Below, piece by piece: positions 31,235-62,628 of a stretch of DNA of 64,000 nt. This DNA is from Cupriavidus sp. D39. GTDB lineage: Bacteria; Pseudomonadota; Gammaproteobacteria; Burkholderiales; Burkholderiaceae. Under the pieces are notes generated by a model, which did not search any database, was not told where the DNA came from, and saw only the letters and a list, made by a program, of their open reading frames with translations. Both the position numbers and the translations under genes were made by a program. The DNA lies in contig NZ_JAPNLE010000009.1 of assembly GCF_026627925.1 (NCBI RefSeq), forward strand, positions 3,410,001 through 3,474,000, given 5' to 3'. Each line of letters opens with the position of its first letter. Within the stretch, counting starts at the first letter, position 1.

Positions 31235-33110
<1,876 letters not shown>

Positions 33111-34966: not shown

Positions 34967-35083
34967 TCCTGATGCCGTGTAACCGCTGTGTAAGCGAATT
35001 CTGTCAACGCGGCTTCCTTACAATCCACCCCGCCCCATTAAAATCTAGACGCTGCGCCTGGCAGGTGGAGGCTAAAGGCCACG

Positions 35084-35222
35084 GTGGCTAGTCAAAAAGT
35101 GGATGATGTGGTCTGGGTGCCCACCGTGTTCAGCAAGAACCGCGAACGGCTGATCAAGCACGACGCGGTAATCGAGTTCTTCAATGAAGTGTTGGCGACC
35201 ACGAAAACGCCTGATCAGCTCA
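35084..35222 (+). pseudogene. IS5-family transposase fragment
   Basis: The short frame encodes VDDVVWVPTVFSKNRERLIK then HDAVIEFFNEVLA, which resembles an internal N-terminal segment of IS5-group transposases (V-W-x-P-T-V-F-S-K-N-R-x-R-L). Both the true N-terminus and the catalytic DDE part are missing; homology ends near 35222. 35223-35447, up to the IS256 element, holds nothing I can identify. This is a dead remnant. Confidence 0.6.
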
Positions 35223-35509
35223 ATTCACTGACTTTCGACTTGTTCGCCAAGGGTCCGCTTGTCCGTGTACCGGATCTAGGCTCCAGACCCACTCATGCAA
35301 TTCCTGCCGACGCTGTAACTATGCGCAGATGGTGCCGGCCAGAATCCTCCCTGAATCCAAGCCGGTACCGTCAATCTCATGGCATGTGCACATAGTTGTG
35401 AACTGTGCATAGGGGTCGATCAGAGCCATCTGGCCTTGACCGCGACTACCCTACCGGGCCTGTACGGGATTTTGTGTGCAGGGCATAACATGTCGACAAG
35501 GAGCATGTA

Positions 35510-36760
35510 ATGCCACGCAAACCAAAGGCCATACCCAGGGACCTTCCGACCATCCCTAAGGAGCTGATCGATCAGTTCGTTAAAGGTCCGATGACTGCTG
35601 AGGCGGTGCAAGACGCCGCCATGGCGTTCAAGAAGGCCCTGATCGAGCGGGCGATGGGCGCGGAGCTGGGCCATCACCTGGGCTACCCGGCGGGTGCCGA
35701 GCGCCCCGAGGATGCAACCAACCAGCGCAATGGCTCCAGCGCCAAGACCGTGCTTACGGACACGGGACCCTTGCGGCTGGCGATCCCGCGCGACCGCGAC
35801 GGCAGCTTCGCGCCCATCCTGATTCCCAAGCACGACCGGCGTTTTACTGGCTTTGACGACAAGATCATCGCCATGTATGCGCGCGGCATGACGGTACGCG
35901 AGATCCAGGCGTTCCTGGTCGAGCAGTATGGCACTGAGGTGTCGCCCGCGTTCATCAGCTCGGTAACGGATGCGGTCATGGAGGAAGTCACCGCCTGGCA
36001 GGCCCGTCCATTGGAGGTCATGTACCCGGTCGTGTTCTTCGACGCGCTGCGGGTCAAGATGCGCGAGGATGGCGTCGTGCGCAGCAAGGCGGTCTATCTG
36101 GCGCTGGGCGTGCTGCCCGATGGCACGCGTGACATCCTGGGCCTGTGGATCGAGACCACCGAAGGGGCAAAGTTCTGGATGAAGGTGTTCAACGACCTGA
36201 AGACGCGAGGCACCCAAGACATCCTGATCGCGGTGACCGACGGCTTGAAGGGCATGGAGCAGGCCCTGAACGCGGTGTTCCCGAGCACGACACTGCAGAC
36301 TTGTGTCGTGCATCTGATACGCGGCAGCCTGGACTACGCGAGCTGGAAGGACCGCCGTGTGGTGGCGGCCGCGCTCAAGCCTGTCTACACGGCTGCCACG
36401 GTTGAGGCCGCCGAGGCGGCGCTGTTGGCCTTCGAGCAAAGCGACTGGGGCAAGCGCTACCCACCGATTGCAGCCTCCTGGCATCGCGCCTGGGACCGGG
36501 TGATTCCATTCTTTGCGTTCCCGCCGGCCATCCGCAAGATCATCTACACCACGAATGCCATCGAGAGCATCAACGCGCAACTGCGTAAGATTATCAAGAC
36601 CCGCGGGCACTTCCCGAGCGATGAAGCGGCCACCAAACTGCTGTGGCTAGCCTTGCGCAACATCACCGGCAAGTGGGGCAGCGCCACGCACGACTGGAAA
36701 GCCGCCATGAACCAGTTCGCGATCCTCTACGAGGATCGCTTCACACAACCCCATCGCTGA
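35510..36760 (+). CDS. IS256-family transposase
   Basis: A 416-residue mutator-type DDE transposase. The catalytic triad is visible at D178 (VVFFDALRVK), D244 (IAVTDGLKGM) and E352 (YTTNAIESINAQLRK), with the family C/H motif TCVVHLIRGSLDY before the last residue. The length is normal for the family. AAGGAG precedes the ATG at 35510. The gene fills the element and has no interruptions, so the element could still move. Confidence 0.95.
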   Translation: MPRKPKAIPRDLPTIPKELIDQFVKGPMTAEAVQDAAMAFKKALIERAMGAELGHHLGYPAGAERPEDATNQRNGSSAKTVLTDTGPLRLAIPRDRDGSFAPILIPKHDRRFTGFDDKIIAMYARGMTVREIQAFLVEQYGTEVSPAFISSVTDAVMEEVTAWQARPLEVMYPVVFFDALRVKMREDGVVRSKAVYLALGVLPDGTRDILGLWIETTEGAKFWMKVFNDLKTRGTQDILIAVTDGLKGMEQALNAVFPSTTLQTCVVHLIRGSLDYASWKDRRVVAAALKPVYTAATVEAAEAALLAFEQSDWGKRYPPIAASWHRAWDRVIPFFAFPPAIRKIIYTTNAIESINAQLRKIIKTRGHFPSDEAATKLLWLALRNITGKWGSATHDWKAAMNQFAILYEDRFTQPHR

Positions 36761-39236: not shown

Positions 39237-39403
39237 CGATCGGCCTAGCCGTCTTGGCCGTGGGCGTGCCCATCGCGGCCTTCTTCATCTGGGTTGCCCG
39301 GAACAGTCTTCGCGCACAGGAGGCGAAACGGGCGGAGCGCCGTGGGTGCAGCTGCCACTGCGGGCGCCGGCAGACCAGCGCCGACCACCAACTGCCTCCA
39401 TAG
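39233..39403 (+). CDS. 56-residue single-helix membrane protein with a Cys-rich tail
   Basis: It starts at ATG 39233 inside the ATGA overlap with the gene before. Residues 2-22 (TIGLAVLAVGVPIAAFFIWV) are one membrane helix. A basic stretch follows (RNSLRAQEAKRAERR), then GCSCHCGRR, with three cysteines and a histidine in C-x-C-x-C spacing at residues 39-43 that could hold a metal. The positive side would be cytoplasmic. There is no known family. Coupled start and normal composition favour a real gene. Confidence 0.5.
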   Translation: MTIGLAVLAVGVPIAAFFIWVARNSLRAQEAKRAERRGCSCHCGRRQTSADHQLPP

Positions 39404-39482
39404 CCCTCTGGCAAGAAGGACAGCCAAGGCTTATCGGTGTCAGATCCACCCCAGGGCACACTCGCCCGGCGCGAGCAGCGCA

Positions 39483-40448
39483 GTGCCCAGCGGGTGGGCT
39501 CCACTATCCCTCCCGTTTTCATGTCTTCTACCGTTCCTTCGCAACTTTCCTGAACCGTATCCGCGCAATATACGAAACGCCGCGTGGCAATTGGAAGAGT
39601 ATCGGCTGTCCAAGGAGGACGCGGGTAGCACCGCCTTTTTTGTCATCGCGGGGCAACTTAGCGCTGGGGCACGGGACATCTTGTGCGAGCGCAACATTGG
39701 CTATTTCGACGCCAGTGGAAGTTTGTACTTCAAGCACAAGGACTGGCTGATCAACATCGATCGCCCGGCGAAACCTGTTTCGCCCCGGCGAGCGGGATCA
39801 CTCTTCACCGGCGCGAGGGAGCAAGTCGTACATGCCCTGCTCCATTCCAACCAGAGATGGCTGACCGGACTCGAGATTGCTGACCTGGCCGAAACCTCCG
39901 CCTATACGGTGTCACTCACCCTGCGTGAATTGGAGCGCCTGGAGCTGGTAGAGTCCAGAGGCAGTGGGCGAACCCTGCGCCGGCGCCTTATACAACCAGG
40001 CGTGCTGCTTGATTTGTGGGCCGATGCCTGGCGCGTTCGGAAGGAACATAAAACCCGCTGGTTTGCGTACACCCGCAACCCGAATGCGATACTTTCGGCC
40101 ATCACCGACAAGCTGGAGAGCGAGGCGCTAACGGGCTGGGCCTTCACCGGCACCGCCGCGGCGAACGCGGTGTCGCCACTGCTTACGCACGTGGAGAGCG
40201 CGGACACAATCGTTCCTCTCGGCAGCACGCCCGACTACGCAAAGGCGCTGGGGTTGCAGGAAGTCGAGAAAGGCTCGAATGTCACCCTCATCGAGCGTGG
40301 CGGTGCGAGCTCCCTATTCACCCGGGAACACTCGGATCATCCCTCGCACCTTGCCAGTGCGTTCATCATGTACCTGGACTTGCTGGACGGCCGTGGCCGC
40401 AACAAGGAACTCGCTTCGCAACTTCGCTCGGACATCCTGAAAATCTGA
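39483..40448 (+). CDS. AbiEi-type antitoxin / transcriptional regulator
   Basis: A type IV toxin-antitoxin antitoxin-like protein. AFFVIAGQLSAGARDILCER and YFDASGSLYFKHKDWLINID form the N-terminal domain. A winged helix follows (GLEIADLAETSAYTVSLTLR, ELERLELVESRGSGRTLRRR). The C-terminal domain has WAFTGTAAANAVSPLLTHVE and ends FIMYLDLLDGRGRNKELASQ. The start is uncertain: I give the GTG at 39483, but the frame is open from 39294 and a small frameshift near 39530 is possible. The toxin normally next to it is only a fragment (40453). Confidence 0.7.
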   Translation: MPSGWAPLSLPFSCLLPFLRNFPEPYPRNIRNAAWQLEEYRLSKEDAGSTAFFVIAGQLSAGARDILCERNIGYFDASGSLYFKHKDWLINIDRPAKPVSPRRAGSLFTGAREQVVHALLHSNQRWLTGLEIADLAETSAYTVSLTLRELERLELVESRGSGRTLRRRLIQPGVLLDLWADAWRVRKEHKTRWFAYTRNPNAILSAITDKLESEALTGWAFTGTAAANAVSPLLTHVESADTIVPLGSTPDYAKALGLQEVEKGSNVTLIERGGASSLFTREHSDHPSHLASAFIMYLDLLDGRGRNKELASQLRSDILKI

Positions 40449-48989: not shown

Positions 48990-49933
48990 ATGCACCGGCA
49001 ATTCGACGACATCCTGCTCGGCAGCATCGAGCTGTTTTGCCTGGCCGCCGAGGCCGGCAGCTTCACGGCGGCCGCCAATACCGCAGGCGTCACGCCTGCC
49101 GCCGTCAGCCGCTCGATCTCGCGCCTGGAAAAGCGCCTGGGCGTGCGCCTGTTCGTGCGCTCCACGCGTAGCATCCGGCTGACTGAAGGTGGCAAGGAAT
49201 ACTTCGAGCAATGCCGCGCCGCGCTCAATCAGCTGGCCGAAGCCGAGCGCAAGGTCACCGGCGAGCAGGTGCAGCCTTCGGGCACGATCCGCATCAGCGC
49301 GCCGACCACCTACGGGCACCATCGCCTGTTGCCGCTCCTGCCCGCGTTTCGCGCCAAGTACCCGCTGATCAAGGTGGAAGCACATATCAGCAACCGCAAC
49401 GTCGACTTCCATGAGGAAAACTTCGACGTGGCGATCCGCTTCCGCGCGCAGCCGGACTCGCTGATGGTCTCCCGGCACCTTGAAGACGCGGCGCTGGTGG
49501 TGGTCGCGAGCCCCGCCTACCTGAAGCGCGCAGGGGTACCCAAAACGCTGTCGGACCTGGACCAGCACGAGTGCATCCAGTTCGATCTACCGAGCAGCGG
49601 GCGGCAGATCTCGTGGCTGTTCAAGGAAGGGGGCACGAGAAGGAGATCTTCTCGACGGGCAACTACATGTGCGCGGAAGACGTGCTGGCCGGCGTGACGC
49701 TGGCCAAAGCGGGCGCAGGGCTGTTCCAGACCTACCGATTCGTCGTCGAGCGGGACCTGGCGCAAGGCGAGCTGGTCGAGGTCCTGCAAGCTTTTGCCGG
49801 GCGCATGCGCCCCGTCAGCCTGATGTATCCGCACGGCCGTTTGCTGCCATCGCGCGTGCGGGCGTTCGTCGAGTTCATGATGGAACAAGCGCGTGGGCCA
49901 ATTGCTGATCAAAGCGGGGCTCGCCGACGTTGA
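48990..49933 (+). CDS. LysR-family transcriptional regulator (frameshifted)
   Basis: The HTH is SIELFCLAAEAGSFTAAANT and VTPAAVSRSISRLEKRLGVR; the effector domain starts PSGTIRISAPTTYGHHRLLP. After SWLFKEGG the frame breaks, and the second frame gives KEIFSTGNYMCAEDVLAGVT and the end of the domain. Five G at 49630-49634 should be six (E-G-G-H-E-K-E-I-F), restoring 314 residues. It is divergent from the SDR operon and is its likely regulator. A duplicated segment begins at its stop codon. Confidence 0.83.
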
Positions 49934-50750
49934 AGTCCGGCGCAGGCGTAGCAAGAGCGCTCGCGTGCAATCTCGCGCAGGTGTAGCTCTTCACCTTGAG
50001 CTAGCGCCCACCCTCTCCCCGGCCCCTCTCCCATTTCATGGGAGAGGGGAGCAAACCAGCGCATTGCATCGTGTCGCTCTCGCTCGGATGGAGGACCCAC
50101 ACGAAAGTCTGATGAACCCATACAAAGATCTGGCCAGGCGGTTGCCCTCGCTCCAGCTCCATTGATCTGCCAACACTCGTTCTGCACGGTCGCCGAGACG
50201 TCATCGCGCCACTCTCTAAACGGGAGAAAGCGCTAGCTGCCTGAGCCCGACGCATGCCGGCACCCCCCAAAAAAATTACACTTCAGCCCATCAGATTTCT
50301 GTGTGGGTCGCCGGGCGAAGTCCGGCGCAGACGTAGCAAGAGTGCTCGCGTGCAATCTCGCGCAGGCGTAGCTCCCTCTCCCGCGCAGCGGGAGAGGGGT
50401 TGAGGGAGAGGGCGGGCATCCGCAAGAGCGAGGCGCTTCACCTTGAGCGAGCGCCCACCCTCTCCCCGGTTGCTCTCCCATTTCATGGAAGAGGGAGCAA
50501 ACCAGCGCATTGCATCGTGTCGCTCTCGCTCGGATGGAGGACCCACACGAAAGTCTGAACTTGCAAGTGTTCGCCGCCGGCGGTTGCCCTCGCTCCAGCT
50601 CCATTGATCTGCCAACACTCGGTCTGCCCCGTCGCCGGGACGCCATCGCGCCACTCTCTAACCGGGAGAAGGCGCTAGCTGCCCGAGCCCGATGCATGCC
50701 GGCAACGCCTCCCAAAACAAATTACACTTCACCTCATCAGATCAGGTCGC
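49932..50750. repeat. Tandem near-duplicate of a 365-430 bp intergenic segment
   Basis: 49932-50296 and 50317-50744 are two copies of the same sequence, both starting GAAGTCCGGCGCAG and both ending in AAATTACACTTCA followed by a CATCAGAT-like element. They differ by scattered changes and by an extra REP-like palindrome (about 50375-50430) in the second copy. Each copy also holds its own REP-like hairpin (near 50015-50050 and 50460-50490). The gap 49934-50775 has no gene I can support. The second copy ends about 30 bp before the LysR gene of the hydroquinone cluster. Confidence 0.8.
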
Positions 50751-50775: not shown

Positions 50776-51741
50776 ATGGACCTGTTCATGTCGATGGAGG
50801 CCTTCGTGCGGGCCGCTGAGGCGCAGAGTTTTGCCAGTGCCGCGCGCCAGTTGGGCGTCGCCAAATCCGTGGTGACCACGCGCGTCAAGCAACTGGAAGA
50901 GCATTTTGGCGTGCCGCTCTTTCATCGTTCGACACGGGCGGTGCGCCTCTCGGAACTCGGTGAGACCTATTACCGCGATTGCGCCGAACTGGTCAACAGG
51001 GTCCACGATCTGTCGGGGCGCTCGCGCGGCGAGCCCCATTCGCTATCCGGTACGCTCAACATCCACGTGCTGCCCGGTTTCGCTCTCGGGCATTTCTCGC
51101 AGACGTTGATCGAATTTCGCGCGGCGTACCCGCGCGTGGAATTCGTCGTCACGGTCAACGACCGGGTTATCGATCCCGTCCAGGAGGGTTTCGATCTCGC
51201 GCTCCAGATCTATCCGCCGGCGTCGAACCTGCTCGTCGAGCGGCGGCTGTTTCCGGTGCGCGGCGTGCTGTGCGCGGCGCCCGGTTACCTGAAGGAAGAG
51301 CCCGTGATCGAGACACCGCTCGATCTGCTGCGGCACGACTTCGCGCGCTATTCCTACTACCCGTGGGGCGACAAGTGGCCGCTGATGCGGGGCAACGAGT
51401 GCTTCGAAATCGCCCTTAATCCGGTGCTGAAAACCAATAGCGTGCATCTTCTGCTCGAGTTCGCGCGAGCCGGCGCGGGCGTGGTCTATCTGCCGACGAT
51501 GGTCGCCGCCGCCGATCTGCTCGAGCGGCGCCTGGAGCGCGTGTTGCCGGAGTATGCGGCGCCGCCGTTGTGGCTCTCGGCCGTCTACCCGGCGTCGCAT
51601 CGCTCGACGACCAAGGTGAAGGCGTTTGTCGATTTCCTGCGTACACGCTACCCGCGCGAGCCGCAGTGGGACAAGGCGCTAGGCATTGCGCCGCCGGACG
51701 ACGAGACGAAGAGCGTCGGCGAGGAACTGGCCGAGGATTGA
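50776..51741 (+). CDS. LysR-family regulator of the hydroquinone cluster
   Basis: A 321-residue LysR protein of the CrgA/DmlR-like group. The HTH is MSMEAFVRAAEAQSFASAAR with VAKSVVTTRVKQLEEHFGVP; the effector domain begins SLSGTLNIHVLPGFALGHFS. The start at 50776 has GGGAG upstream. It lies 164 bp ahead of hapC on the same strand and is the obvious regulator of the operon. The gap between them has a TACC-CTCTA-GGTA inverted repeat (51764-51776), a possible binding site. The effector would be hydroquinone or a precursor (inference). Confidence 0.88.
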   Translation: MDLFMSMEAFVRAAEAQSFASAARQLGVAKSVVTTRVKQLEEHFGVPLFHRSTRAVRLSELGETYYRDCAELVNRVHDLSGRSRGEPHSLSGTLNIHVLPGFALGHFSQTLIEFRAAYPRVEFVVTVNDRVIDPVQEGFDLALQIYPPASNLLVERRLFPVRGVLCAAPGYLKEEPVIETPLDLLRHDFARYSYYPWGDKWPLMRGNECFEIALNPVLKTNSVHLLLEFARAGAGVVYLPTMVAAADLLERRLERVLPEYAAPPLWLSAVYPASHRSTTKVKAFVDFLRTRYPREPQWDKALGIAPPDDETKSVGEELAED

Positions 51742-51905
51742 CCTTCTGCCTGCCTCCTGGGGTTACCCTCTAGGTACTTTCCCTGGGGCCTTTTTGACGC
51801 ACTCGTGGTTCGCGATTCCCGACCCTCGGATCATTGCTGTCCAGCCTGTCGCCACTTAATCTTCGATGCAAGCAACAACGCATTCAAGGATCAACGGAGG
51901 CAGAC

Positions 51906-52397
51906 ATGCAACAGACCTGGTTCGGCAGCCTGGACAATTTTCGGAAGGGCTCCATCGAAATCATCAAGGGCAAGCCGGAGCATTACGCGATGTCGAACGT
52001 GTTCGAAGTCGCGAGCCGCGCGCAGCCCTATCAGAAAGTCGTGGTCGGCAAGAATCTCAAGTACGTGATCGAGACGCTGCGCGCGGAAGGTTCGTCGCCG
52101 TGGTTTGCTGCATCGCACGATGAGTTCGCGGTCGTGCTCGACGGCGAGATCGACGTGCACTTCATCAAGCCCTCGGGCGGGCCGCTCGTCGACGCAAAGA
52201 CGGAAGGCACGGTGCGCCTGGACGGACAGCCGGCGGGCCAGCCGATGGGCTACGTGCGCCTCAGGCGCGGCCATCAGGCGCTGCTGCCGACGGGTGCCGC
52301 GTACCGTTTCGAAGCGGTGACGAAGGGCGTGCTGCTCGTGCAAACGATCCTCGGGCAATGCTCGGTCGAGAAGTGGGCCGAGATCTGCATCCAATGA
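51906..52397 (+). CDS. hapC: Hydroquinone 1,2-dioxygenase small subunit
   Basis: A 163-residue cupin-fold protein (MQQTWFGSLDNFRKGSIEII; SHDEFAVVLDGEIDVHFIKP; YVRLRRGHQALLPTGAAYRF) that matches in size and position the about 19-kDa small subunit of two-component hydroquinone dioxygenases (HapC of 4-hydroxyacetophenone degraders, PnpC of 4-nitrophenol degraders). These Fe(II) enzymes open hydroquinone between C1 and C2 to 4-hydroxymuconic semialdehyde. GGAGG lies ahead of the ATG. The large subunit follows 46 bp later. The name rests on the four-gene order as well as on the protein. Confidence 0.85.
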   Translation: MQQTWFGSLDNFRKGSIEIIKGKPEHYAMSNVFEVASRAQPYQKVVVGKNLKYVIETLRAEGSSPWFAASHDEFAVVLDGEIDVHFIKPSGGPLVDAKTEGTVRLDGQPAGQPMGYVRLRRGHQALLPTGAAYRFEAVTKGVLLVQTILGQCSVEKWAEICIQ

Positions 52398-52443
52398 CCC
52401 TCTCTACGCGATCTACGCGATCTATCAACGACTGGAGTCAATC

Positions 52444-53439
52444 ATGGACAAAGTAACCGGGCTGCAAAACGTCACCGCGACCGAGCCCGATCCGACCACC
52501 GGCTATCGCATCTTCCATCTCGGCGATTTCGAGTTCAGCCGCGATGCGTATTTCGCCACCGTCAAATGGCCCGCGAACGGCCAGACGCGTTCGCACCAGA
52601 TGCACGCCGACGACTTCCTGCGCGCGATGATGCGCGACGTGGCGTGGGGCTTCTTCTACGGCTGGGTCAATTTCGACGAAGTGATCGGCACGCGCAATCA
52701 CTACGGCAAGGTCGACATGTATGCGGGCTCGTACAACGCGAGCTACAAGGATGCGGGCATCGATCATACGCAGCAGTTCGATACGCCGCTCATCATGGCA
52801 ACGTTCAAGGCGATCCTGCGGGACTGGGTCAACGAGGGCTTCGACCCCTTCGCCGCGCCCGAGGAGACCGGTTCCGCGTTCGGCGCGAAACATGGCGACA
52901 ACATCGCGGCAATCGAGCGCACACGCATCGCCACCAAGCGCATGCCGGGCCTCGAAGGTGATTCGCCGTTGCGCGACGACCTGCCGGTCAATCGCCAGTT
53001 CGCGGACGTGGTCCAGGACGAGCCGGAGATTCATGCGGAGCCGGGCTTCGAGGGCGCGCTGCATGCGTTCAGCCTGTTCAAGTACCTGTCGCGCTCGGAT
53101 GTGACCTGGAATCCGTCGGTCACGTCGGTCTGCCAGCAGAGCCTGTTCTGCCCGACCACCGAGGAATTCGTGCTGCCGGTGTTTCACGGCAACGACCGCG
53201 TCGAGTGGTTCCTGCAACTGTCCGACCAGATCATCTGGGACGTCGCCGACAAGGATAGCGGCGAGCCGCGTGCACGCATCACGATGAACGCGGGCGACAT
53301 CGCCGCCATGCCCGCCGACATCCGTCACAAGGGCTATTCGCAGAAGCGTTCGATGTTGCTGGTCTGGGAGAACGCCACGCCAGATCTGCCGAAGCGCTAC
53401 GAAAGCGGCGAGCTGCCGCCCTACCCGATCCAGATCTAA
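52444..53439 (+). CDS. hapD: Hydroquinone 1,2-dioxygenase large subunit
   Basis: A 331-residue protein matching the about 38-kDa catalytic subunit (HapD/PnpD). The probable iron ligands are H248, N250 and E254 in LPVFHGNDRVEW and H295 in ADIRHKGYS: the spacing H-x-N-x3-E then His 41 residues on equals the ligand set I recall for the PnpD structure. The N-terminal part (GYRIFHLGDFEFSRDAYFAT) is the second cupin-like region. It forms a heterotetramer with HapC in known cases. It is followed 109 bp later by the aldehyde dehydrogenase. Confidence 0.88.
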   Translation: MDKVTGLQNVTATEPDPTTGYRIFHLGDFEFSRDAYFATVKWPANGQTRSHQMHADDFLRAMMRDVAWGFFYGWVNFDEVIGTRNHYGKVDMYAGSYNASYKDAGIDHTQQFDTPLIMATFKAILRDWVNEGFDPFAAPEETGSAFGAKHGDNIAAIERTRIATKRMPGLEGDSPLRDDLPVNRQFADVVQDEPEIHAEPGFEGALHAFSLFKYLSRSDVTWNPSVTSVCQQSLFCPTTEEFVLPVFHGNDRVEWFLQLSDQIIWDVADKDSGEPRARITMNAGDIAAMPADIRHKGYSQKRSMLLVWENATPDLPKRYESGELPPYPIQI

Positions 53440-53548
53440 CTCTCCGGCATTCCCCCGATCGTCGATCGAACGGCGCCAGACCGCTGGCGCCGCGGGGATG
53501 TCACGTCCAGGTTTTACTGTTTTACTGTTTTCCTAGTGCAGGACCAAC

Positions 53549-55012
53549 ATGCAAACTCAACTCTTCATCGGCGGCCGCTTCGTGCCGGCTGCAAGCGGCG
53601 AAACCCTCGCCACCCTGAATCCGCACGACAACTCGGTGATCGCCGACGTTGCGATGGCCGGAGCCGCCGATGTGGACCGCGCCGTCGCGGCCGCGAAGGC
53701 GGCGTTTCCGAAGTGGAGCAATCTCGCCGCGATGGAGCGCGGCCGGCTGCTGCTGAAGCTGGCCGATGCGATCGAGGCGAATGCCGACGCGCTGGCCCGG
53801 CTCGAATCGCTCGACACCGGCCATCCGATTCGCGATACGCGCAATCTCGATGTGCCGCGCACGGCCGCCACGTTCCGCTATTTCGGCGGCATGGCCGACA
53901 AGTTCGAAGGTTCGGTGATTCCGGTCGAGCAGGGCATTCTGAACTACCTGACGCGCGAGCCGGTGGGCATCGTCGGGCAGGTGGTGCCGTGGAATTTCCC
54001 GCTGATGTTCACGAGCTGGAAGATGGCGCCCGCGCTCGCCGCTGGCAACTGCGTGATCATGAAGCCGGCGGAACTGACGCCGCTGTCGAGTCTTGCGATT
54101 GCCGAGCTGATGACCGAGGTGGGGTTTCCCGCCGGAGTCGTCAATATCCTGCCGGGGTTCGGCAGTGTGGCCGGTCAATACATCGCGGAGCATCCTGAGA
54201 TCAGCAAGATCGCCTTTACGGGTTCGACTGCGGTGGGCCGCAAGATTGTGCAGGCATCGAGCGGCAACCTGAAGAAGGTGCAGCTCGAACTCGGTGGCAA
54301 AGGCGCGAACATCGTATTCGGCGACGCCAACATCGATGCCGTTGTGCAAGGGTCCGCGTTCGCGATCTTCCACAACCAGGGGCAGGCGTGCATCGCGGGT
54401 TCGCGGATGATCGTGCATGAGTCGATCGCCGACGAGGTGCTGGAGAAGTTCACTGCGTTGAGCCGCACGATCAAGATCGGCGATCCGCTCGACCCATCGA
54501 CCGAGATGGGCCCGCTCACCTCGCGCCAGCATCGCGACCGCGTGCTCTCCTACGTGGACATTGCGCGGGAGCAGGGCGGCCGCGTGTTGGCCGGCGGCAA
54601 GGCACCGGAGGCGGCGGCGCTGGCGAACGGCTGCTACGTGGAGCCGACCATCGTCGCGGCGAAGCCAGAACATCGGGTGTCGCAGGAGGAGGTGTTCGGT
54701 CCGTTCATGACCGTCACCACGTTCCGCACGGACGAGGAAGCGCTCGCCATCGCGAACGGCACCGAGTATGGTCTCGGCGCGGGTCTCTGGACTCGCGATC
54801 TGCAACGCGCGCACCTGGTGGCCCGCGAGATCCGCGCTGGCATGGTGTGGATCAATTGCTACAAGCGCGTCAGCCCAGCATCGCCGTTCGGCGGTGTCGG
54901 CGCAAGCGGCTATGGCCGCGAGATGGGCTTCGAAGCGATGCGCGAATACACGCAACCCAAGTCGGTCTGGGTCAACGTGGATGCGCAGATACCGCCGTAC
55001 TATCCGCGCTGA
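53549..55012 (+). CDS. hapE: 4-hydroxymuconic semialdehyde dehydrogenase (ALDH family)
   Basis: A 487-residue NAD(P)-dependent aldehyde dehydrogenase. The cofactor loop is IAFTGSTAVGRKI, the general base E247 lies in KKVQLELGGKGANIV and the nucleophile C281 in NQGQACIAGSRM. It ends NCYKRVSPASPFGGVGASGY, GREMGFEAMREYTQPKS. By family alone it is a general ALDH; its place between hydroquinone dioxygenase and maleylacetate reductase makes 4-hydroxymuconic semialdehyde (giving maleylacetate) the likely substrate. The next gene starts 16 bp later. Confidence 0.87.
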   Translation: MQTQLFIGGRFVPAASGETLATLNPHDNSVIADVAMAGAADVDRAVAAAKAAFPKWSNLAAMERGRLLLKLADAIEANADALARLESLDTGHPIRDTRNLDVPRTAATFRYFGGMADKFEGSVIPVEQGILNYLTREPVGIVGQVVPWNFPLMFTSWKMAPALAAGNCVIMKPAELTPLSSLAIAELMTEVGFPAGVVNILPGFGSVAGQYIAEHPEISKIAFTGSTAVGRKIVQASSGNLKKVQLELGGKGANIVFGDANIDAVVQGSAFAIFHNQGQACIAGSRMIVHESIADEVLEKFTALSRTIKIGDPLDPSTEMGPLTSRQHRDRVLSYVDIAREQGGRVLAGGKAPEAAALANGCYVEPTIVAAKPEHRVSQEEVFGPFMTVTTFRTDEEALAIANGTEYGLGAGLWTRDLQRAHLVAREIRAGMVWINCYKRVSPASPFGGVGASGYGREMGFEAMREYTQPKSVWVNVDAQIPPYYPR

Positions 55013-55028
55013 ACCACGCTGAACCGCC

Positions 55029-56087
55029 ATGAACCCCTTCGTCTACAACGGCTTGCCATCGCGCGTGGTGTTCGGCGCGGGCAGTCTCGACCAGCTGGGC
55101 CGCGAGATCGAGTTGCTCGGCGCGACGCGCGCGCTCGTGCTGTCCACCCCGCAGCAGCGCGCGCAGGCGGAAGCGCTGGCCGCGCAACTGGGCGCGCGTG
55201 CTGCCGGCGTCTTTGCCGAAGCCGTCATGCATGTGCCGGTCGAGACCGCCCGCCAGGCGCGCGCTTTCGCGGCAAAGGTCGGCGCCGATTCCGCGATCGC
55301 GATAGGCGGCGGATCGACGACCGGGCTCGGCAAGGCCATTGCGCTCGAAACGTCGCTGCCGATCATCGCCATCCCGACCACCTATGCGGGTTCCGAGATG
55401 ACGCCGATCTACGGCCTCACCGAGGGCGGCGTGAAGAAGACCGGGCGCGACCTGCGCGTGCTGCCGAAGACGGTCATCTACGATCCGGCGCTGACCACCT
55501 CGCTGCCGCCCGCGCTGTCGCTCACCAGCGGCATCAATGCCATCGCCCATGCGGCGGAAGGACTGTACGCGCAGGACGCCAACCCGATCATCAGCCTGAT
55601 GGCGGAAGAGGGCATCCGGGCACTGGGAAACGGTCTTCCACGCGTGATGGACGAGCCAGCCGATCTCGCCGCGCGCTCGGACTGCCTGTATGGCGCATGG
55701 CTGTGCGGCGCCGTGCTCGGCAGCGTCGGCATGGCGCTGCATCACAAGCTATGCCACACGCTCGGCGGCACGTTCAATCTGCCGCACGCGGAGACGCACA
55801 CGATCGTGTTGCCGCATGTGCTGGCTTACAACCGCGACGCCGCCCCTGAAGCGATGAAGCGCATCGCCCGGGCCCTGCGCGCCGACGATGCCGCGCAAGC
55901 GGTGTTCGATCTCGCACACGACCACGGCGCGCCGACTGCGCTAAAGGACATCGGCCTCACCGCGGCGGATCTGGACGTGGCGCTCGATCTCGCCTTGAAG
56001 AATCCCTACTGGAACCCGCGGCCGGTCGAACGCGCACCGCTGCGAGCGTTGCTGGAAGCCGCCTTCGAGGGGCGACCACCGACGTAG
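55029..56087 (+). CDS. hapF: Maleylacetate reductase
   Basis: A 352-residue iron-type alcohol dehydrogenase fold enzyme that reduces maleylacetate to beta-ketoadipate. MNPFVYNGLPSRVVFGAGSL is the usual start of this group. AIGGGSTTGLGKAIALETSL binds the cofactor, and IIAIPTTYAGSEMTPIYGLT and GVKKTGRDLRVLPKTVIYDP are typical of maleylacetate reductases (MacA/TftE type). The metal-site histidines appear in GMALHHKLCHTLGG and LPHAETHTIVLPH. It completes the four-step route from hydroquinone to a central intermediate. Confidence 0.92.
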   Translation: MNPFVYNGLPSRVVFGAGSLDQLGREIELLGATRALVLSTPQQRAQAEALAAQLGARAAGVFAEAVMHVPVETARQARAFAAKVGADSAIAIGGGSTTGLGKAIALETSLPIIAIPTTYAGSEMTPIYGLTEGGVKKTGRDLRVLPKTVIYDPALTTSLPPALSLTSGINAIAHAAEGLYAQDANPIISLMAEEGIRALGNGLPRVMDEPADLAARSDCLYGAWLCGAVLGSVGMALHHKLCHTLGGTFNLPHAETHTIVLPHVLAYNRDAAPEAMKRIARALRADDAAQAVFDLAHDHGAPTALKDIGLTAADLDVALDLALKNPYWNPRPVERAPLRALLEAAFEGRPPT

Positions 56088-56138
56088 CTGCACGCACTGA
56101 CATATCGACACATCGACACAATAAGACAGGAGACAACC

Positions 56139-57427
56139 ATGGACGGACATTCCTTCGATGCCGGACGCCGCCGCTTCGTCACGCTGGCGGCGGGCGGCGC
56201 GCTCGCCGCCTCGACCTCGGCGCTGTCGCCGCTGGTGTTCGCGGCCGGCCCGCGTACCTTGAAGATCGGCTATGTATCGCCGCAAACCGGCCCGCTCGCG
56301 CCGTTCGGGGAAGCCGATCGCTTCACGATCCAGCAGATGCAGACGGCGCTGAAGAGCGGCATCGTGATCGGCGGCAAGCCGTACCCGGTATCGATCGTGG
56401 TCAAGGACAGCCAGTCGAATCCGAATCGCGCGGGCGAAGTGGCGAACGACCTGATTCTCAAGGACAAGGTCGACATCATACTGGTGTCAGGTACGCCTGA
56501 GACCGCGAATCCCGTCAGCGATGCGTGCGAACTGAACGAGATGCCGTGCGTGTCGACCGTGGTGCCGTGGCAGCCGTGGTTCTTCGGCAGGAAAGGCGAT
56601 CCGAAGAAGGGCTTTCGTTTTACCTATCACTTCTTCTGGGGCCTGGAGGACGTGATCGCCGTCTACACCGGCATGTGGCAATCGGTGCAGACCAACCATA
56701 GCGTGGGCGCCCTGTTCCCGAACGACGGCGACGGCAACGCATGGGGCGATGCCAAGCTTGGGTTTCCGCCCGTGCTGGCGCAAAGGGTTTCACCCTGAAA
56801 GACCCGGGCCGTTTCCAGAGCATGACGCAGGACTTCTCCGCGCAGATTTCGGCGTTCAAGCAGGCGAATGCGCAGATCGTCACCGGCGTCGTGATCCCGC
56901 CCGACGCGAAGAACTTCCTGGTCCAAGCGCGCCAGCAAGGCCTGAAGCCCAAGGTGATCTCGATCGGCAAGGCGCTGTTGTTTCCGACCTCGATCGAAGC
57001 GCTGGGCGATCTTGGCGACGGTCTGTCGACCGAGGTGTGGTGGTCGCCGTCGCATCCGTTCAAGTCGTCGCTGACGGGACAAAGCGCGCGGCAGGTTGCC
57101 GACGATTACGAGCGCGTGACGTCGAAGCAGTGGACGCAACCGATTGGCTTCGCACATGCCCTGTTCGAAATCGCGGTCGATGCGTTGAAACGCGCCAAGG
57201 ATGTCGACTCGAATGAAGCGATTCGCGACGCGGTCGCGTCGACCAAGCTCGATACGCTGGTCGGCCATGTCGCGTGGGGCAGCGGTCCGGTGAAGAATGT
57301 CGCGAAGACGCCGCTCGTCGGCGGCCAGTGGGTGAAGGGCCAGAAGCATCGCTTCGACCTGGCGATCGTGAACAACCAGCTCGCGCCGACCGTGCCGCTA
57401 AGCGGCCCGCTCAAGCTGATCGCGTGA
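56139..57427 (+). CDS. ABC transporter substrate-binding protein, LivK-like (frameshifted)
   Basis: The first frame has a twin-arginine signal (DAGRRRFVTLAAGGALAAST) and the binding fold TLKIGYVSPQTGPLAPFGEA as far as GFPPVLAQ. The second continues GFTLKDPGRFQSMTQDFSAQ to the end. Three A at 56782-56784 should be four (L-A-Q-K-G-F-T), giving 429 residues. Type I periplasmic binding fold of the branched-chain/aromatic group. A Tat signal is less common here than a Sec signal. It is the first gene of a complete LIV-type importer and 51 bp behind hapF, so the ligand is probably the aromatic substrate of the pathway. Confidence 0.87.
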
Positions 57428-57447
57428 CCTGTGCGTGGAGAACTGCC

Positions 57448-58170
57448 ATGAGCCCTGTCCTGAAACTGACCGGCGTCTCGAAGCGCTACGGCGCGTTGCT
57501 GGTCACCGACGATATCAGCTTCGCGGTCGAGCGCGGGGAGACCTACGGCATCCTCGGCCCGAACGGTGCCGGCAAGACGACCCTGTTCAACCTCGTCAGC
57601 GGCGACGTGCGGCCCGATAAGGGCGGTGTGGAGTTCGACGGTGCCGACGTCGGGCACCTGCCGCCGCATCGCCGCTGCGCGGCTGGCATTGGCCGCTCAG
57701 ACCAGGTGCCGCGGCCGTTCGGCGGCATGACCGTGTTCGAGAACTTGCTGGTGGGAGCGACGTTCGGCGGTGAGCTGACGGAGCACGCCGCTTACGAGGT
57801 TTGCGTCGACGTGCTGGAGCGCACCGGCCTCAAGGCCCGCGCCAACCAGCTCGCCGGAACGCTCGGCCTGCTCGATCGCAAACGCCTGGAACTGGCGCGG
57901 GCGCTCGCCACGCAGCCGCAATTGCTGTTGCTCGATGAGATCGCGGGCGGCTTGACCGAACCCGAAACGCACGAACTCGTCGATGAAATCCGCCGGGTGA
58001 AGGAGCGCGGCGTGACCATCGTGTGGATCGAGCATGTCGTGCATGCGCTGCTCGCGGTGGCAGACCGGCTGCTGGTCATCAATTTCGGCAAGCGGCTCGC
58101 CGAAGGACTGCCCGCCACCGTGATGGAAGACCCCGAGGTGCGGCGGGTGTATCTCGGACTGGAGGCATGA
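57448..58170 (+). CDS. ABC transporter ATPase, LivG-like
   Basis: A 240-residue ATPase. Walker A is GILGPNGAGKTTL, the LivG-type Q-loop region is GRSDQVPRPFGGMTVFENL, the signature position reads LGLLDRKRLELARAL (weak form of LSGGQ, usual for LivG) and Walker B is LLLLDEIAGGL, with the switch His in IVWIEHVVHAL. The start at 57448 follows GTGGAG. The stop overlaps livF by four bases (ATGA at 58167-58170). Confidence 0.92.
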   Translation: MSPVLKLTGVSKRYGALLVTDDISFAVERGETYGILGPNGAGKTTLFNLVSGDVRPDKGGVEFDGADVGHLPPHRRCAAGIGRSDQVPRPFGGMTVFENLLVGATFGGELTEHAAYEVCVDVLERTGLKARANQLAGTLGLLDRKRLELARALATQPQLLLLDEIAGGLTEPETHELVDEIRRVKERGVTIVWIEHVVHALLAVADRLLVINFGKRLAEGLPATVMEDPEVRRVYLGLEA

Positions 58171-58880
58171 CCATGTCGACACTATTGGAGACGCGCGCCC
58201 TGACCGCGTTCTATGGCGATTTCCAGGCGCTGTTCGGGATCGACGTGACGGTAGCGCAAGGCGAAGTGATCGCGCTGATCGGCTCGAACGGCGCGGGCAA
58301 GTCGACCTTCCTAAAAGCGGTGGCCGGGCTGCTGCGCGCGCGCGCCGACCAGATCCTGTACCGCGGCGAGCCGCTCGGCGGGGCGGCTGCGGAGAGCATC
58401 GTCGGCAAGGGCATCGCGCTGGTGCCGGAAGGGCGACGTCTGTTTGCGAGCCTCACGGTCGAAGAAAACCTCCTGCTCGGCGCGTATTGCAAGCGGCCCG
58501 GACGGTGGAACCTGCAAACCGTCTATGGGCTGTTCCCGGCGTTGCGGGAACGCCGCCACCACGCCGCCACGGCACTGTCTGGCGGTCAGCAGCAGATGGT
58601 TGCCATCGGCCGCGCGTTGATGAGCAACCCGGATCTGCTGATGTGCGACGAACTCTCGCTCGGTCTCGCCCCGGTGATTGTGCGGGAGATCTATGCGGCG
58701 TTGCCGGAGATTGTCGCGGGCGGCATGAGCGCGATCGTGGTCGAGCAGGACGTGCAACTTGCACGCCGCGTGTCGTCGCGCTTCTATTGCTTCCAGGAGG
58801 GGAGGGTGTCGCTGTCGGGCGTGTCGGCCAACGTCTCCGACGAGGCGATCACGCAAGCGTACTTCGGAGCCGTCGCATGA
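58167..58880 (+). CDS. ABC transporter ATPase, LivF-like
   Basis: A 237-residue ATPase. Walker A IALIGSNGAGKSTFLKAVAG, the LivF-type GIALVPEGRRLFASLTVEEN, signature LSGGQQQMVAIGRALMSNP, Walker B LLMCDELSLGLAP and the switch His replaced by Gln (VVEQDVQLARR), as is common for LivF. The start overlaps livG, and the stop overlaps livH by four bases (ATGA at 58877-58880); an alternative ATG lies two codons on at 58173. Confidence 0.92.
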   Translation: MTMSTLLETRALTAFYGDFQALFGIDVTVAQGEVIALIGSNGAGKSTFLKAVAGLLRARADQILYRGEPLGGAAAESIVGKGIALVPEGRRLFASLTVEENLLLGAYCKRPGRWNLQTVYGLFPALRERRHHAATALSGGQQQMVAIGRALMSNPDLLMCDELSLGLAPVIVREIYAALPEIVAGGMSAIVVEQDVQLARRVSSRFYCFQEGRVSLSGVSANVSDEAITQAYFGAVA

Positions 58881-59743
58881 ATACCTTGATCAACATCGTC
58901 GTCCAAGGCGTGCTGCTGGGCGCGCTATATGGGCTCTTCGCCATGGGCCAGTCGCTGGTGTTCGGCGTGATGCGGCTGACCAATACCGCGCACGGCGACT
59001 TCATCGTGCTGCTTGTCTTCGTGCTGTTTGCGCTGACGGGCCTGGCGCATCTGCCGCTCGCCGCCGCGATCGTGCTGCTGCTCGTGATCGCATTCGGTGC
59101 GGGCTACGCGGTGCAATACACCATCCTCAACCGGGTCAGCAGCCGCGACCCGCTGCCGTCGCTGATTGTCACCTTCGGGCTGTCGATCGTGATCCAGAAC
59201 GTGCTGCAGCAGGTGTTTTCCGCGGACCCGCGCTCGATCGCGACGGGTAGCTTCGAAGCGAAGAGCATCACGCTCGCGGGCGGCATCACGCTCGGCTATC
59301 TGCCGCTCGCCGCGCTGGCCGCAACCATCGCGCTGGCGTTTGCGATGCAATGGCTGTTTGGCCGCACGCCGCTCGGCCGGGCTTTTCGGGCGACCTCCGA
59401 CGACCGCGAGATTGTCCAGTTGATGGGCGTCTCATACCGCCGCACCTACGCGCTGGCGATGGGCATCGCGTTCGTGTTGATCGCCGTCGCCGCCGCGCTC
59501 TATTCGATGCGCACCGCGGTCTCCCCGACGGATGGGCCGGCTTTGCTGCTGTACGCGTTCGAGGCCGTGATCATCGGTGGGATGGGCTCCTTCTGGGGCA
59601 CGTTCGTGGGCGGCATGGCGCTGGGCATCGCGCAACAGGCGGGCTTTTACTTCGACCCCGGCTGGGGCATCTGGCTTGGCCACGTGGTGTTTCTTGCCGT
59701 GCTGGTGGCCCGGCCGCAGGGCTTGCTGCCCAAAACCGCATAG
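58877..59743 (+). CDS. ABC transporter permease, LivH-like
   Basis: A 288-residue permease with about eight membrane helices. MNTLINIVVQGVLLGALYGL, FAMGQSLVFGVMRLTNTAHG and the transmission-interface stretch GRAFRATSDDREIVQLMGVS are typical of LivH. It ends in VVFLAVLVARPQGLLPKTA. Its start is coupled to livF; livM follows after 10 bp. Confidence 0.92.
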   Translation: MNTLINIVVQGVLLGALYGLFAMGQSLVFGVMRLTNTAHGDFIVLLVFVLFALTGLAHLPLAAAIVLLLVIAFGAGYAVQYTILNRVSSRDPLPSLIVTFGLSIVIQNVLQQVFSADPRSIATGSFEAKSITLAGGITLGYLPLAALAATIALAFAMQWLFGRTPLGRAFRATSDDREIVQLMGVSYRRTYALAMGIAFVLIAVAAALYSMRTAVSPTDGPALLLYAFEAVIIGGMGSFWGTFVGGMALGIAQQAGFYFDPGWGIWLGHVVFLAVLVARPQGLLPKTA

Positions 59744-59753
59744 AGGTATCGAC

Positions 59754-60845
59754 ATGACCACGTACTTGAACAGCGCCGCGCCAGGCTTCGAGGTGCAGCG
59801 CGCGACCCGCTCGAGCCGGGTGGCCGTAGCCGGCTTGCTGATCGTCGCACTGGCGGTCGCCAGCGCGCCCTGGTGGGCCGGGCGCGATGCGTTGCGCGAT
59901 TTCGTGCAGCTTGCGTCGTATCTCGTCTTCGCGATGATGTGGAACCTGCTCGCGGGATACGGCGGCATGGTGTCGATCGGCCAGCAGGCGTTCTTCGGCA
60001 TCGGCGGCTATGGGATGTTGATACTCGCGAACTATTGCGGTGTATCGCCGTTCATCGCGGTGCCGCTCGCCGCGGGAATCGCCACGGTCGTGGCGATTCC
60101 GGTGTCGCTGGTGGCGTTCCGTCTCGAAGGCGGGTACTTCGCGATCGGCACGTGGGTGATCGCCGAAGTGTTCCGCCTGAGCGTGGCGAACGTGTCGGTG
60201 TTGGGCGGCGGCTCGGGCACCAGCCTGACCGCGCTGCGGGACGTGCCGCGCGCGCTGCGCGAATCACTCACACTCTGGCTCGCGCTTGCCATCGTCGCGG
60301 CCGCGGTCGGCCTGCTCTACGTGTTCCTGCGCTCGAAGGCTGGCCTTGCGTTGACCGCGATGCGCGACAACGCGGTTGCGGCCAGCAGCCAGGGCGTGGA
60401 CGTGAAGCGCGTGCGGCTCATCGTCTATCTGGTATCGGCATGCGGCGCGGCCCTGGCGGGTGGCCTGTATTTCCTTGGCAACCTGCGCATCTCGCCTGAC
60501 GCCGCGTTCTCGGTGAACTGGACCGCATTCGGCATCTTCATCGTGATGATTGGCGGTTTGGGGACGCTCGAAGGGCCGATAGTCGGCGCGCTGATCTTCT
60601 TCGTCTTGAACAAGTTCCTGTCCGACTACGGCACCTGGTACCTGATCGGGCTCGGGGTGCTGGCCATTGTCGTGACGATGTACTTTCCGCAGGGCCTGTG
60701 GGGCTTCGTGTCACGCCGCTTTGGCCTGCAACTGTTCCCGGTGGGCCGGCGCGTGGTGTTCGACGAGTCCGCGCCGCCGCAGAAGCGATCGCCCGGCGGC
60801 ATGGCGGACTCGCTCGATACGCCGCCGGCCACGCATCGCGCATGA
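59754..60845 (+). CDS. ABC transporter permease, LivM-like
   Basis: A 363-residue permease with about nine helices. MMWNLLAGYGGMVSIGQQAF then FGIGGYGMLILANYCG is the LivM signature, and GLALTAMRDNAVAASSQGVD the ATPase-contact loop. The last 40 residues after VTMYFPQGLWGFVSRRF are a hydrophilic tail (VVFDESAPPQKRSPGGMADS), longer than usual. The Rieske gene starts 8 bp after its stop, so the operon continues. Confidence 0.92.
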   Translation: MTTYLNSAAPGFEVQRATRSSRVAVAGLLIVALAVASAPWWAGRDALRDFVQLASYLVFAMMWNLLAGYGGMVSIGQQAFFGIGGYGMLILANYCGVSPFIAVPLAAGIATVVAIPVSLVAFRLEGGYFAIGTWVIAEVFRLSVANVSVLGGGSGTSLTALRDVPRALRESLTLWLALAIVAAAVGLLYVFLRSKAGLALTAMRDNAVAASSQGVDVKRVRLIVYLVSACGAALAGGLYFLGNLRISPDAAFSVNWTAFGIFIVMIGGLGTLEGPIVGALIFFVLNKFLSDYGTWYLIGLGVLAIVVTMYFPQGLWGFVSRRFGLQLFPVGRRVVFDESAPPQKRSPGGMADSLDTPPATHRA

Positions 60846-60853
60846 GGTGAGCG

Positions 60854-61222
60854 ATGAACACGGCCGTTCCCGAACCGCAGCCCGGCTTTCTGTGCGCGCT
60901 CGACGACATTCCCGACGGCGGCGCGCTGGAAATTCCGGCCGGGCAGGCCGGCGTGCCTGGCATCGTCTTGCTGCGCCGGGGCGATGACGCCTGGGCGTAT
61001 CGCAACGTCTGCCCGCATTTTTCGATTCCGCTGAACTACGAGCCGAACACGTTTTGGGCCTATGACCCTGGCTTGCTGATGTGCGCGCACCACAGCGCGA
61101 TGTTCCGCTTCGAGGACGGGCTGTGCGTGGACGGGCCATGCGAGGGCGCGGCACTCACGCCGGTTGCCATATGCATTGAGCAAAGACAGATCTTCAACCA
61201 CGACAAGTGCGGACAGGCCTGA
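60854..61222 (+). CDS. Small Rieske [2Fe-2S] ferredoxin
   Basis: A 122-residue Rieske protein. The cluster ligands are C53 and H55 (NVCPHFSIPLNY) and C77 and H80 (LLMCAHHSAMF), 21 residues apart. It has no membrane or catalytic domain, so it should be a soluble electron carrier for an oxygenase or a regulator of cluster supply. No oxygenase component lies in the window. Extradiol-type hydroquinone dioxygenase needs no electron donor, so a partner enzyme, perhaps one making hydroquinone, may be coded elsewhere. It could instead keep the dioxygenase iron reduced, as XylT-type ferredoxins do. Confidence 0.88.
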   Translation: MNTAVPEPQPGFLCALDDIPDGGALEIPAGQAGVPGIVLLRRGDDAWAYRNVCPHFSIPLNYEPNTFWAYDPGLLMCAHHSAMFRFEDGLCVDGPCEGAALTPVAICIEQRQIFNHDKCGQA

Positions 61223-61300
61223 AGCATGCGCGGCGCGCCTCGACATCCGCGGGCGCTTGCGGGCAGTGCGCTACGACTTTGTCCTGGCCGGGGAGGGGCA

Positions 61301-61615
61301 ATGATGGGTTACTACTTCGCGGTATTCGCCACCGACAAGCCAGGCATGGGCGCCGTGCGCGAGCGCGTGCGCCCGGCGCACCGGGCCTATCTGCGGGCGC
61401 CATCCGCCCAGCGGGTGATCGTGCGGCTGGGCGGGCCGACGCTCACCGAAGACGGTGCCGGCATGAACGGCACCCTGCTGGTGGTGGAAGCCGAAGCGCT
61501 GGCTGACGTGGAGCGCTTTGTCAACGCGGATCCCTATGTGCGCAACGGCATCTTTGAGCGCGTCGAAATCCGCCCGTGGCAATGGGGGTTGGGAAATCCG
61601 GACAAACCAGCATGA
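61301..61615 (+). CDS. YciI-family protein
   Basis: A 104-residue protein of the YCII fold. It begins MMGYYFAVFATDKPGMGAVR, then ERVRPAHRAYLRAPSAQRVI with the conserved R-P-x-H-R-x-Y-L, then GTLLVVEAEALADVERFVNA and DPYVRNGIFERVEIRPWQWG. Family members act as small isomerases or dehalogenases (relatives handle chlorohydroquinone products) or have no known role. In this operon it may work on an intermediate. The gene is 78 bp behind the Rieske gene. Confidence 0.85.
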   Translation: MMGYYFAVFATDKPGMGAVRERVRPAHRAYLRAPSAQRVIVRLGGPTLTEDGAGMNGTLLVVEAEALADVERFVNADPYVRNGIFERVEIRPWQWGLGNPDKPA

Positions 61616-61716
61616 GCGGCACCGCTGCAACGCTTCGTACCGTCGGCGAGAGTCCGGCGGCGACGCGCCGCGCAAACCAAAAGAACCCATATCGGGACAC
61701 CACAATGGAGGAAGCA

Positions 61717-62628
61717 ATGAAGGGCTCACGGATTGAATGGCGCATTGCCTTGCGCCGCGGCGTGCTGGCCGCCACCCTAGCCGCCGCCGCGGGCGGCGCA
61801 ACGGCTACCGAGAACGGCGGCTCCATCTACCCGATGGGCGCGGAGAACTACATGACCGGCGCGCTGCCGCCGCCGGGCCTCTACGGCATGGTATTCCTGA
61901 ACCGCTACGAGGCGGATTCACTTCGGGACAACAACGGCAATCGCGTGCCCCTGGACTTCAGTGTCCGCGCCAACGCGATCTCGCCACGCCTTGTGTGGGT
62001 GCCCGGCGTGAAAGTGCTGGGTGGCGACGTGGTGCTGCACACGATCCTCCCGCTGGTGAACCTGCGGGTGCAGGCCGGCAACGCCAGCCAAACCAAGACA
62101 GGCATCGGCGACATGGTGTTCGGCACCGGCCTCGGCTATCACTACAGCCAGAACCTGCACGCCGTGTTTGGCGTGGACGTGTTCGCCCCCACCGGCCAGT
62201 ACAACAAGAACGATCTGGCCAATATCGGCCGCAACTATTGGGCCGTCCAGCCGCTGGCGAATTTCACCTACGTGGATCCCACCGGCCTGAACGCCGATAT
62301 CAAGGCGATGTACACCTACAACTTCAAGAATCCTGCGACCAATTACAAATCGGGGCAGGAATTCCACTTCGACTACGCATTGGGATGGGGCGTAGGCGGC
62401 GGGTGGGTGCTCGGCGCGGGCGGCTATGCCTATTGGCAGGTCAGCGATGACAAAGTCAACGCCCAGACGGTGCCGGACAACAAGGGACGCGCCTTTGCAA
62501 TCGGCCCCTCGCTCAAGTACGACAGCGGCAAAGGCTGGTTCGTCACGGCGAAATGGCAGAAGGAACTGGGCGTGCGCAACCGGGCGCAGGGCAACGCGTT
62601 CTGGGTCAAGGTGGTGTTTCCTTTGTGA
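61717..62628 (+). CDS. SphA-like outer-membrane channel (phenol-degradation MetA-pathway type)
   Basis: A 303-residue outer-membrane beta-barrel. The signal is RIALRRGVLAATLAAAAGGA, with the mature start TENGGSIYPMGAENYMTGAL. Amphipathic strands alternate to a C-terminal strand ending NAFWVKVVFPL, with a terminal hydrophobic residue. GIYPMGxE and GDMVFGTGLGYHYSQNLHAV are typical of the phenol_MetA_deg (SphA) group found in aromatic operons. GGAGG precedes the ATG at 61717. It is the last gene of the hydroquinone operon and would let the aromatic compound cross the outer membrane. Confidence 0.88.
   Translation: MKGSRIEWRIALRRGVLAATLAAAAGGATATENGGSIYPMGAENYMTGALPPPGLYGMVFLNRYEADSLRDNNGNRVPLDFSVRANAISPRLVWVPGVKVLGGDVVLHTILPLVNLRVQAGNASQTKTGIGDMVFGTGLGYHYSQNLHAVFGVDVFAPTGQYNKNDLANIGRNYWAVQPLANFTYVDPTGLNADIKAMYTYNFKNPATNYKSGQEFHFDYALGWGVGGGWVLGAGGYAYWQVSDDKVNAQTVPDNKGRAFAIGPSLKYDSGKGWFVTAKWQKELGVRNRAQGNAFWVKVVFPL

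Follow-up and report, generated by a model that had tools for sequence, protein, structure and literature searches.

The window analysed here, a stretch of 64,000 nucleotides from Cupriavidus sp. D39 (contig NZ_JAPNLE010000009.1, positions 3,410,001 to 3,474,000), carries genes for hydroquinone catabolism followed by the genes of a Liv-type ATP-binding cassette (ABC) importer. The genes, all on the + strand, code a LysR-type regulator, the enzymes HapC to HapF, the importer components LivK, LivG, LivF, LivH and LivM, a Rieske-type ferredoxin, a YciI-family protein and an SphA-type outer-membrane channel. All had been listed in a first-pass annotation and were found in their places by Pfam searches and by reading start positions from the sequence.

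The regulator gene (50776..51741, ATG at 50776) codes a protein with Pfam domains HTH_1 and LysR_substrate that is 95-96% identical to its counterparts in three Paraburkholderia. The intergenic segment that separates it from hapC (51742..51905) has blocks, ending in GGAGG, that are conserved in an alignment with 13 related loci; it is likely to hold the predicted promoter and regulator site. The hapC gene (51906..52397) codes the putative small subunit of hydroquinone dioxygenase. It gave no match in the Pfam search and is recognized as a conserved frame that adjoins hapD in 86 of 86 loci, this one counted, with 52-90% identity in the others. HapD (52444..53439), the large subunit of hydroquinone 1,2-dioxygenase, matches PF18191 (PnpCD_PnpD_N, 2.8e-79) and the solved large subunit of Protein Data Bank (PDB) entry 4zxa (1.8e-178), to which residues 9-330 align. 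Its motifs HGNDRVE and DIRH align with those of 4zxa and the pair is found in 85 of the 86 loci, being missed in L036; their His, Asn, Glu and His residues are presumably the iron ligands, as in PnpCD. Next come hapE (53549..55012; Aldedh, 5.7e-180), assigned to 4-hydroxymuconic semialdehyde dehydrogenase also from its place in the conserved cluster, and hapF (55029..56087), whose product has Fe-ADH domains and counterparts annotated elsewhere as maleylacetate reductase. A PnpD-type large subunit, the iron-ligand motifs, and the dehydrogenase and maleylacetate reductase genes that follow immediately identify an operon of PnpCD/HapCD type, in which the names HapC to HapF and the presumed chemistry of each step follow family knowledge.

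The importer genes are livK (56139..57427; Peripla_BP_6), coding the substrate-binding protein and split by a one-base frameshift, livG (57448..58170; ABC_tran and BCA_ABC_TP_C) and livF (58167..58880; ABC_tran), coding the ATPases, and livH (58877..59743) and livM (59754..60845), coding permeases with BPD_transp_2 domains. All parts of a Liv-type (HAAT) importer are thus encoded: one binding protein, its gene frameshifted, two permeases and two ATPases. Four-base ATGA overlaps join livG to livF and livF to livH. The Rieske-type ferredoxin gene (60854..61222; PF00355, PnpX2-like) is the last of a block with Paraburkholderia-like sequence. The genes of the YciI-family protein (61301..61615; YCII PF03795, PnpX1-like) and of the SphA-type channel (61717..62628; Phenol_MetA_deg PF13557, 2.4e-67) lie outside this block, after gaps of ~80 and ~100 bases. 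A consensus scan of 50.6-62.9 kb gave no promoter-like site (1.6 expected) and seven terminator-like sites (8.5 expected), and neither kind of signal separates hapF from livK, where its presence would have spoken against a single operon.

No frame for a hydroxyquinol 1,2-dioxygenase occurs between hapF and the SphA gene, and the best match elsewhere in the genome is 38% identical. The cluster, for which the first-pass annotation noted no hydroquinone-forming monooxygenase, has none of PnpA type, and the best whole-genome match is 36% identical. This absence fits with hydroquinone that comes from outside the cell, although it does not tell which compound is imported.

Distribution of the importer-associated clusters

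The combination of the four-enzyme route with an importer is a conserved arrangement found in several genera. It was assessed in the best 80 of 324 related stretches from one scan, the importer being scored by LivK, LivG, LivH and LivM at 45% identity (LivF was not used). The importer is present in 33 of these hydroquinone clusters, a major facilitator superfamily (MFS) transporter in 25, both in none and neither in 22. Some flanks are short (e.g. L063, L065, L069) and L057, L060 and L065 are partial clusters. Importer-type and MFS-type clusters belong largely to separate HapD lineages, so that the counts do not represent independent events. The fusion, taken initially as special to this locus, is therefore rather common among its relatives, and the proposed synteny comparison of hap and liv genes yields a recurrent pairing.

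Two gene orders were recognized. The importer directly follows hapF or hapE in 30 of the 80 loci, while in three loci of Cupriavidus it comes after intradiol dioxygenase, YciI and Rieske genes. In 27 of the 30 loci measured, 40-190 bases separate the hapF stop from the start of livK; in the remaining three, which have the Cupriavidus order, the distance is 1.7 kb. No hapF match was found in the importer clusters L007, L047 and L074. The LivK of the Cupriavidus-order group (L052/L075) is 83-84% identical to that of P. sediminicola and the Pararobbsia LivK (L046) 80%, while in the comparison of HapD with the window Pararobbsia is closer (83-85%) than the L052/L075-group Cupriavidus (79-80%). These identities hint at exchange of the importer between hydroquinone clusters, the LivK branching being weak at that point (86/58).

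The association extends to whole genomes. Among 398 Burkholderiaceae genomes, hapD is found in 107 and LivK relatives in 33. A close LivK group occurs in 26 genomes and in each of them (26/26) its gene starts 2.7-5.7 kb from hapD, measured between match starts. A distant group comprises 12 copies at 41-64% identity, the limit between the two having been set after the gap between 64% and 71% was seen; a comparison by eye with the full list of hapD genes placed hapD on the contig of none of the 12. Chance proximity would not give an arrangement so conserved across several genera. The operon is real and conserved, and more ordinary than first thought.

Among the 80 loci, a Rieske gene is found in 77, an intradiol dioxygenase gene in 60 (confirmed by Pfam as Dioxygenase_C in five loci) and a YciI gene in 26. 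The YciI of the window is 54-65% identical to those in clusters of Cupriavidus and Burkholderia and in MFS-type clusters of Paraburkholderia and Caballeronia. None of the 80 loci has a relative of SphA with at least 40% identity; 14 hold a more distant gene whose representative (L020) belongs to SphA's Pfam family, and L057 and L060 have matches of 30-31%. Six genomic contexts of SphA relatives were retrieved: one adjoins LysR-hapCDE (L191), one an FAD hydroxylase and a VOC-family protein (L190), one is near an intradiol dioxygenase gene (L194) and L192, L193 and L195 are less telling. The Rieske protein has no solved relative at a threshold of 0.001. Its CxH and CxxH motifs are separated by 21 residues in all 77 loci where the match exceeds 45%; this spacing is usually ~15-17 residues in Rieske proteins.

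The livK frameshift and the origin of the block

The importer had been described as complete. As sequenced it is not intact, because livK is frameshifted by one base: the gene is read as two overlapping frames, 56139-56798 (Peripla_BP_6 positions 1-145) and 56741-57427 (153-339). The shift lies between ~56,741 and 56,798, where the window is one base short relative to all 33 related loci aligned there, whose livK is read in one frame. Comparison of both halves with three Paraburkholderia gives ratios of nonsynonymous to synonymous substitution (dN/dS) of 0.02-0.04 at dS of 0.55-0.64, equal to or lower than those of most intact genes of the block. With such strong purifying selection on both halves and three other split genes nearby, it is likely that the reading frame was lost very recently or that the break is a sequencing error.

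The three other genes read in two frames code a LysR protein (48,990-49,933), a helicase to the right of the operon (window 62894 to L087:7827) and a phospholipase C (L087:9059-11250). Together with livK they could be taken as pseudogenes of a decaying acquired island in which the importer is out of use in this strain. We consider such decay unlikely in view of the substitution ratios in livK and of the ten remaining genes of the block, which are all in frame and 83-96% identical to the three Paraburkholderia. The split LysR, helicase and phospholipase C genes are outside the acquired block, which fits with sequencing errors.

The host is a Cupriavidus, its 16S sequence being 98.2% identical to Cupriavidus necator A5-1 and 98.0% to C. 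campinensis, and 92-93% identical to the Paraburkholderia and Burkholderia compared. The window sits on a 5.34-Mb contig of a 7.74-Mb genome and has dnaA, dnaN and gyrB at 24.6-30.8 kb, which assigns it to the main chromosome. In contrast to the 16S affiliation, the stretch 50.77-61.22 kb aligns colinearly with Paraburkholderia DNA (~85-87% identity), without a break in L003 and L006, for example, and this likeness ends at ~61,224. The nearest Paraburkholderia homologues of HapD share 93-95% identity with it, versus 75-80% for those of other Cupriavidus, and HapD occurs in four of 36 Cupriavidus genomes, this one counted. In the LivK tree the window groups with 12 Paraburkholderia-type sequences (support 97/90). 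The HapD tree, built without L050 (internal stop) and with rough labels (L082-L086 are labelled transporter-less although their flanks are too short), places other Cupriavidus across a branch of 100/98 support; the position of the window itself (93/85) is not firm. Horizontal gain is the simplest reading of a Cupriavidus 16S combined with a Paraburkholderia-type block, HapD and LivK, and the segment 50.77-61.22 kb was probably acquired from a Paraburkholderia-like donor.

Several other features lie around the operon. A segment of ~400 bases is present in two copies ~446 bases apart (49932-50742) and ends at the start of the Paraburkholderia-like block; parts of it match 47 places of the genome, its own counted. 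Directly to the right of dnaA-dnaN-gyrB are two consecutive group II intron maturase genes and a Mutator-family transposase gene (31642-36760), and at 39294-40448 there is a gene for an AbiEi-type antitoxin-like regulator (weak match, 2e-6). A second Liv-type importer is encoded together with an amidase ~10 kb to the right of the hydroquinone operon (L087:12713-18980).

Cargo of the importer

The family of the importer and the name given by databases to importers of the window type are those of branched-chain amino acid transport. An ordinary amino acid importer found next to the hydroquinone genes by accident is nevertheless very improbable: the close LivK is linked to hapD in 26 of 26 genomes, the same importer subfamily occurs in two gene orders, and the NCBIfam LivJ/LivK model gives 32.1 bits, far below its curated cut-off of 477 (measured for the L005 orthologue). 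Some distant LivK relatives also adjoin ring-cleavage genes. This is the case of three of the nine contexts retrieved for the 12 distant copies: L169 has an intradiol dioxygenase and a YciI gene, L170 genes for an FAD hydroxylase, an FAA hydrolase and a VOC-family protein, its transporter operon also containing SphA, and L173 a catechol 2,3-dioxygenase-like gene. Of the other contexts, there is a flavin reductase gene in L171 and L172, a porin gene with a cyclase or short-chain dehydrogenase/reductase gene in L174-L176, and nothing telling in L177.

A structure model of LivK was useless when built from 11 sequences (pLDDT 35) and good when built from 67 (pLDDT 88.8). The predicted fold appears nearest to amino-acid-type binders and the model does not name the ligand, a result that leans towards an amino acid importer. 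Linkage, gene context and the LivJ/K score disfavour that candidate, and the cargo of the importer is likely aromatic. Hydroquinone itself is a plausible candidate.

The cargo could alternatively be another aromatic, probably an acid, which is converted to hydroquinone or hydroxyquinol by enzymes whose genes lie elsewhere; the operon would then supply the later steps of a longer pathway. Among the solved LivK relatives, 4evs, 4ey3, 4evq, 4q6w and 4f8j have titles that name bound hydroxybenzoates or hydroxycinnamates, and the MFS transporter of the alternative clusters is weakly similar, with scores far below the cut-off, to MFS families that include aromatic-acid/H+ symporters. The frequency of the intradiol dioxygenase gene suggests moreover that the pathway may also be entered at hydroxyquinol, but the window has no such gene. 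Flanking genes, among which one that forms hydroquinone was sought, weigh against this reading: if a porin (in 12 loci) and an antisense frame are set aside, no family is common to more than four of the 33 importer-type loci, the families being partly identified, and genes for a PnpA-like FAD monooxygenase are found in five of the 80 loci, none of importer type. An aromatic acid as cargo is credible, if somewhat doubtful.

As a tentative proposal, which we regard as quite possible, the importer would be driven by ATP and specific to hydroquinone or a closely related quinol. This would account for a LivK subfamily that is found only with a hydroquinone dioxygenase in the sampled genomes, in two HapCD lineages and two gene orders, and that has an MFS transporter in its stead in about one third of the clusters studied.

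Relation to known systems and proposed function

The nearest enzyme systems are the pnpC1C2DECX1X2 and pnpCDEFG operons of 4-nitrophenol degraders (Pseudomonas putida DLL-E4, strain WBC-3 and plasmid pPNP1 of Pseudomonas JS425) and hapCDEFGHIAB of P. fluorescens. They share with the window LysR control, a two-subunit hydroquinone dioxygenase, a semialdehyde dehydrogenase, a maleylacetate reductase, a YciI protein and a ferredoxin. In the window an importer follows hapF, the Rieske gene precedes the YciI gene, and the seven-gene pnpC1C2DECX1X2 layout is not reproduced since the operon has no hydroxyquinol 1,2-dioxygenase gene. PMC6063337, in which ten strains are compared, reports the latter gene absent from some Burkholderia and identifies X1 as YciI and X2 as a ferredoxin; these two genes are thus established members of hydroquinone clusters. 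Plasmid pPNP1 has the pnpC1C2DECX1X2 order and no importer or channel annotated within 15.3 kb, in a gene table that is incomplete.

Liv-type (family 4) ABC importers adjoining or serving aromatic pathways are noted for Cupriavidus JMP134 (PMC2842291) and as CouPSTU for R. palustris (PMC3610893). Unlike the importer of the window, which is associated with hydroquinone genes, they are tied there to benzoate-type acids or phenylpropenoids, and the word hydroquinone is absent from the main text of PMC2842291. A pairing of the importer with a hydroquinone cluster was not found described in the open-access literature, the scope of the search. The enzymes and accessory genes are known already, and it is the conserved link with the importer that makes the locus a variant.

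The DNA itself gives the gene content and order, the Paraburkholderia-type sequence of 50.77-61.22 kb and the linkage to hapD of this LivK subfamily wherever it occurs in the Burkholderiaceae genomes sampled. The locus is probably a PnpCD/HapCD-type hydroquinone-catabolic operon that includes an importer for aromatic compounds and that a Cupriavidus obtained from a Paraburkholderia-like donor. By analogy with the protein families, the LysR regulator would sense an aromatic effector and switch on expression from hapC onward; the effector reported for the pnp operon of P. putida DLL-E4 is hydroquinone (PMC4871426). SphA would pass the compound across the outer membrane, LivK would bind it in the periplasm and LivHMGF would move it inward with ATP. 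HapCD would then convert hydroquinone to 4-hydroxymuconic semialdehyde, from which HapE would yield maleylacetate and HapF beta-ketoadipate. More speculatively, the Rieske ferredoxin might keep the dioxygenase iron reduced and the imported cargo might be hydroquinone or a close quinol. The YciI protein, whose closest solved relative is TftG, a 5-chloro-2-hydroxyhydroquinone dehydrochlorinase (4lbh, 1.8e-11), might act on hydroxylated or chlorinated quinols.

Soil and waste water commonly contain hydroquinone, a toxic phenol that bacteria are usually assumed to take up passively. The conserved alternation of an ABC importer with an MFS transporter among such catabolic clusters would provide a clean test of active uptake for small neutral diphenols, and LivK may prove useful as a binding protein in sensing or clean-up.

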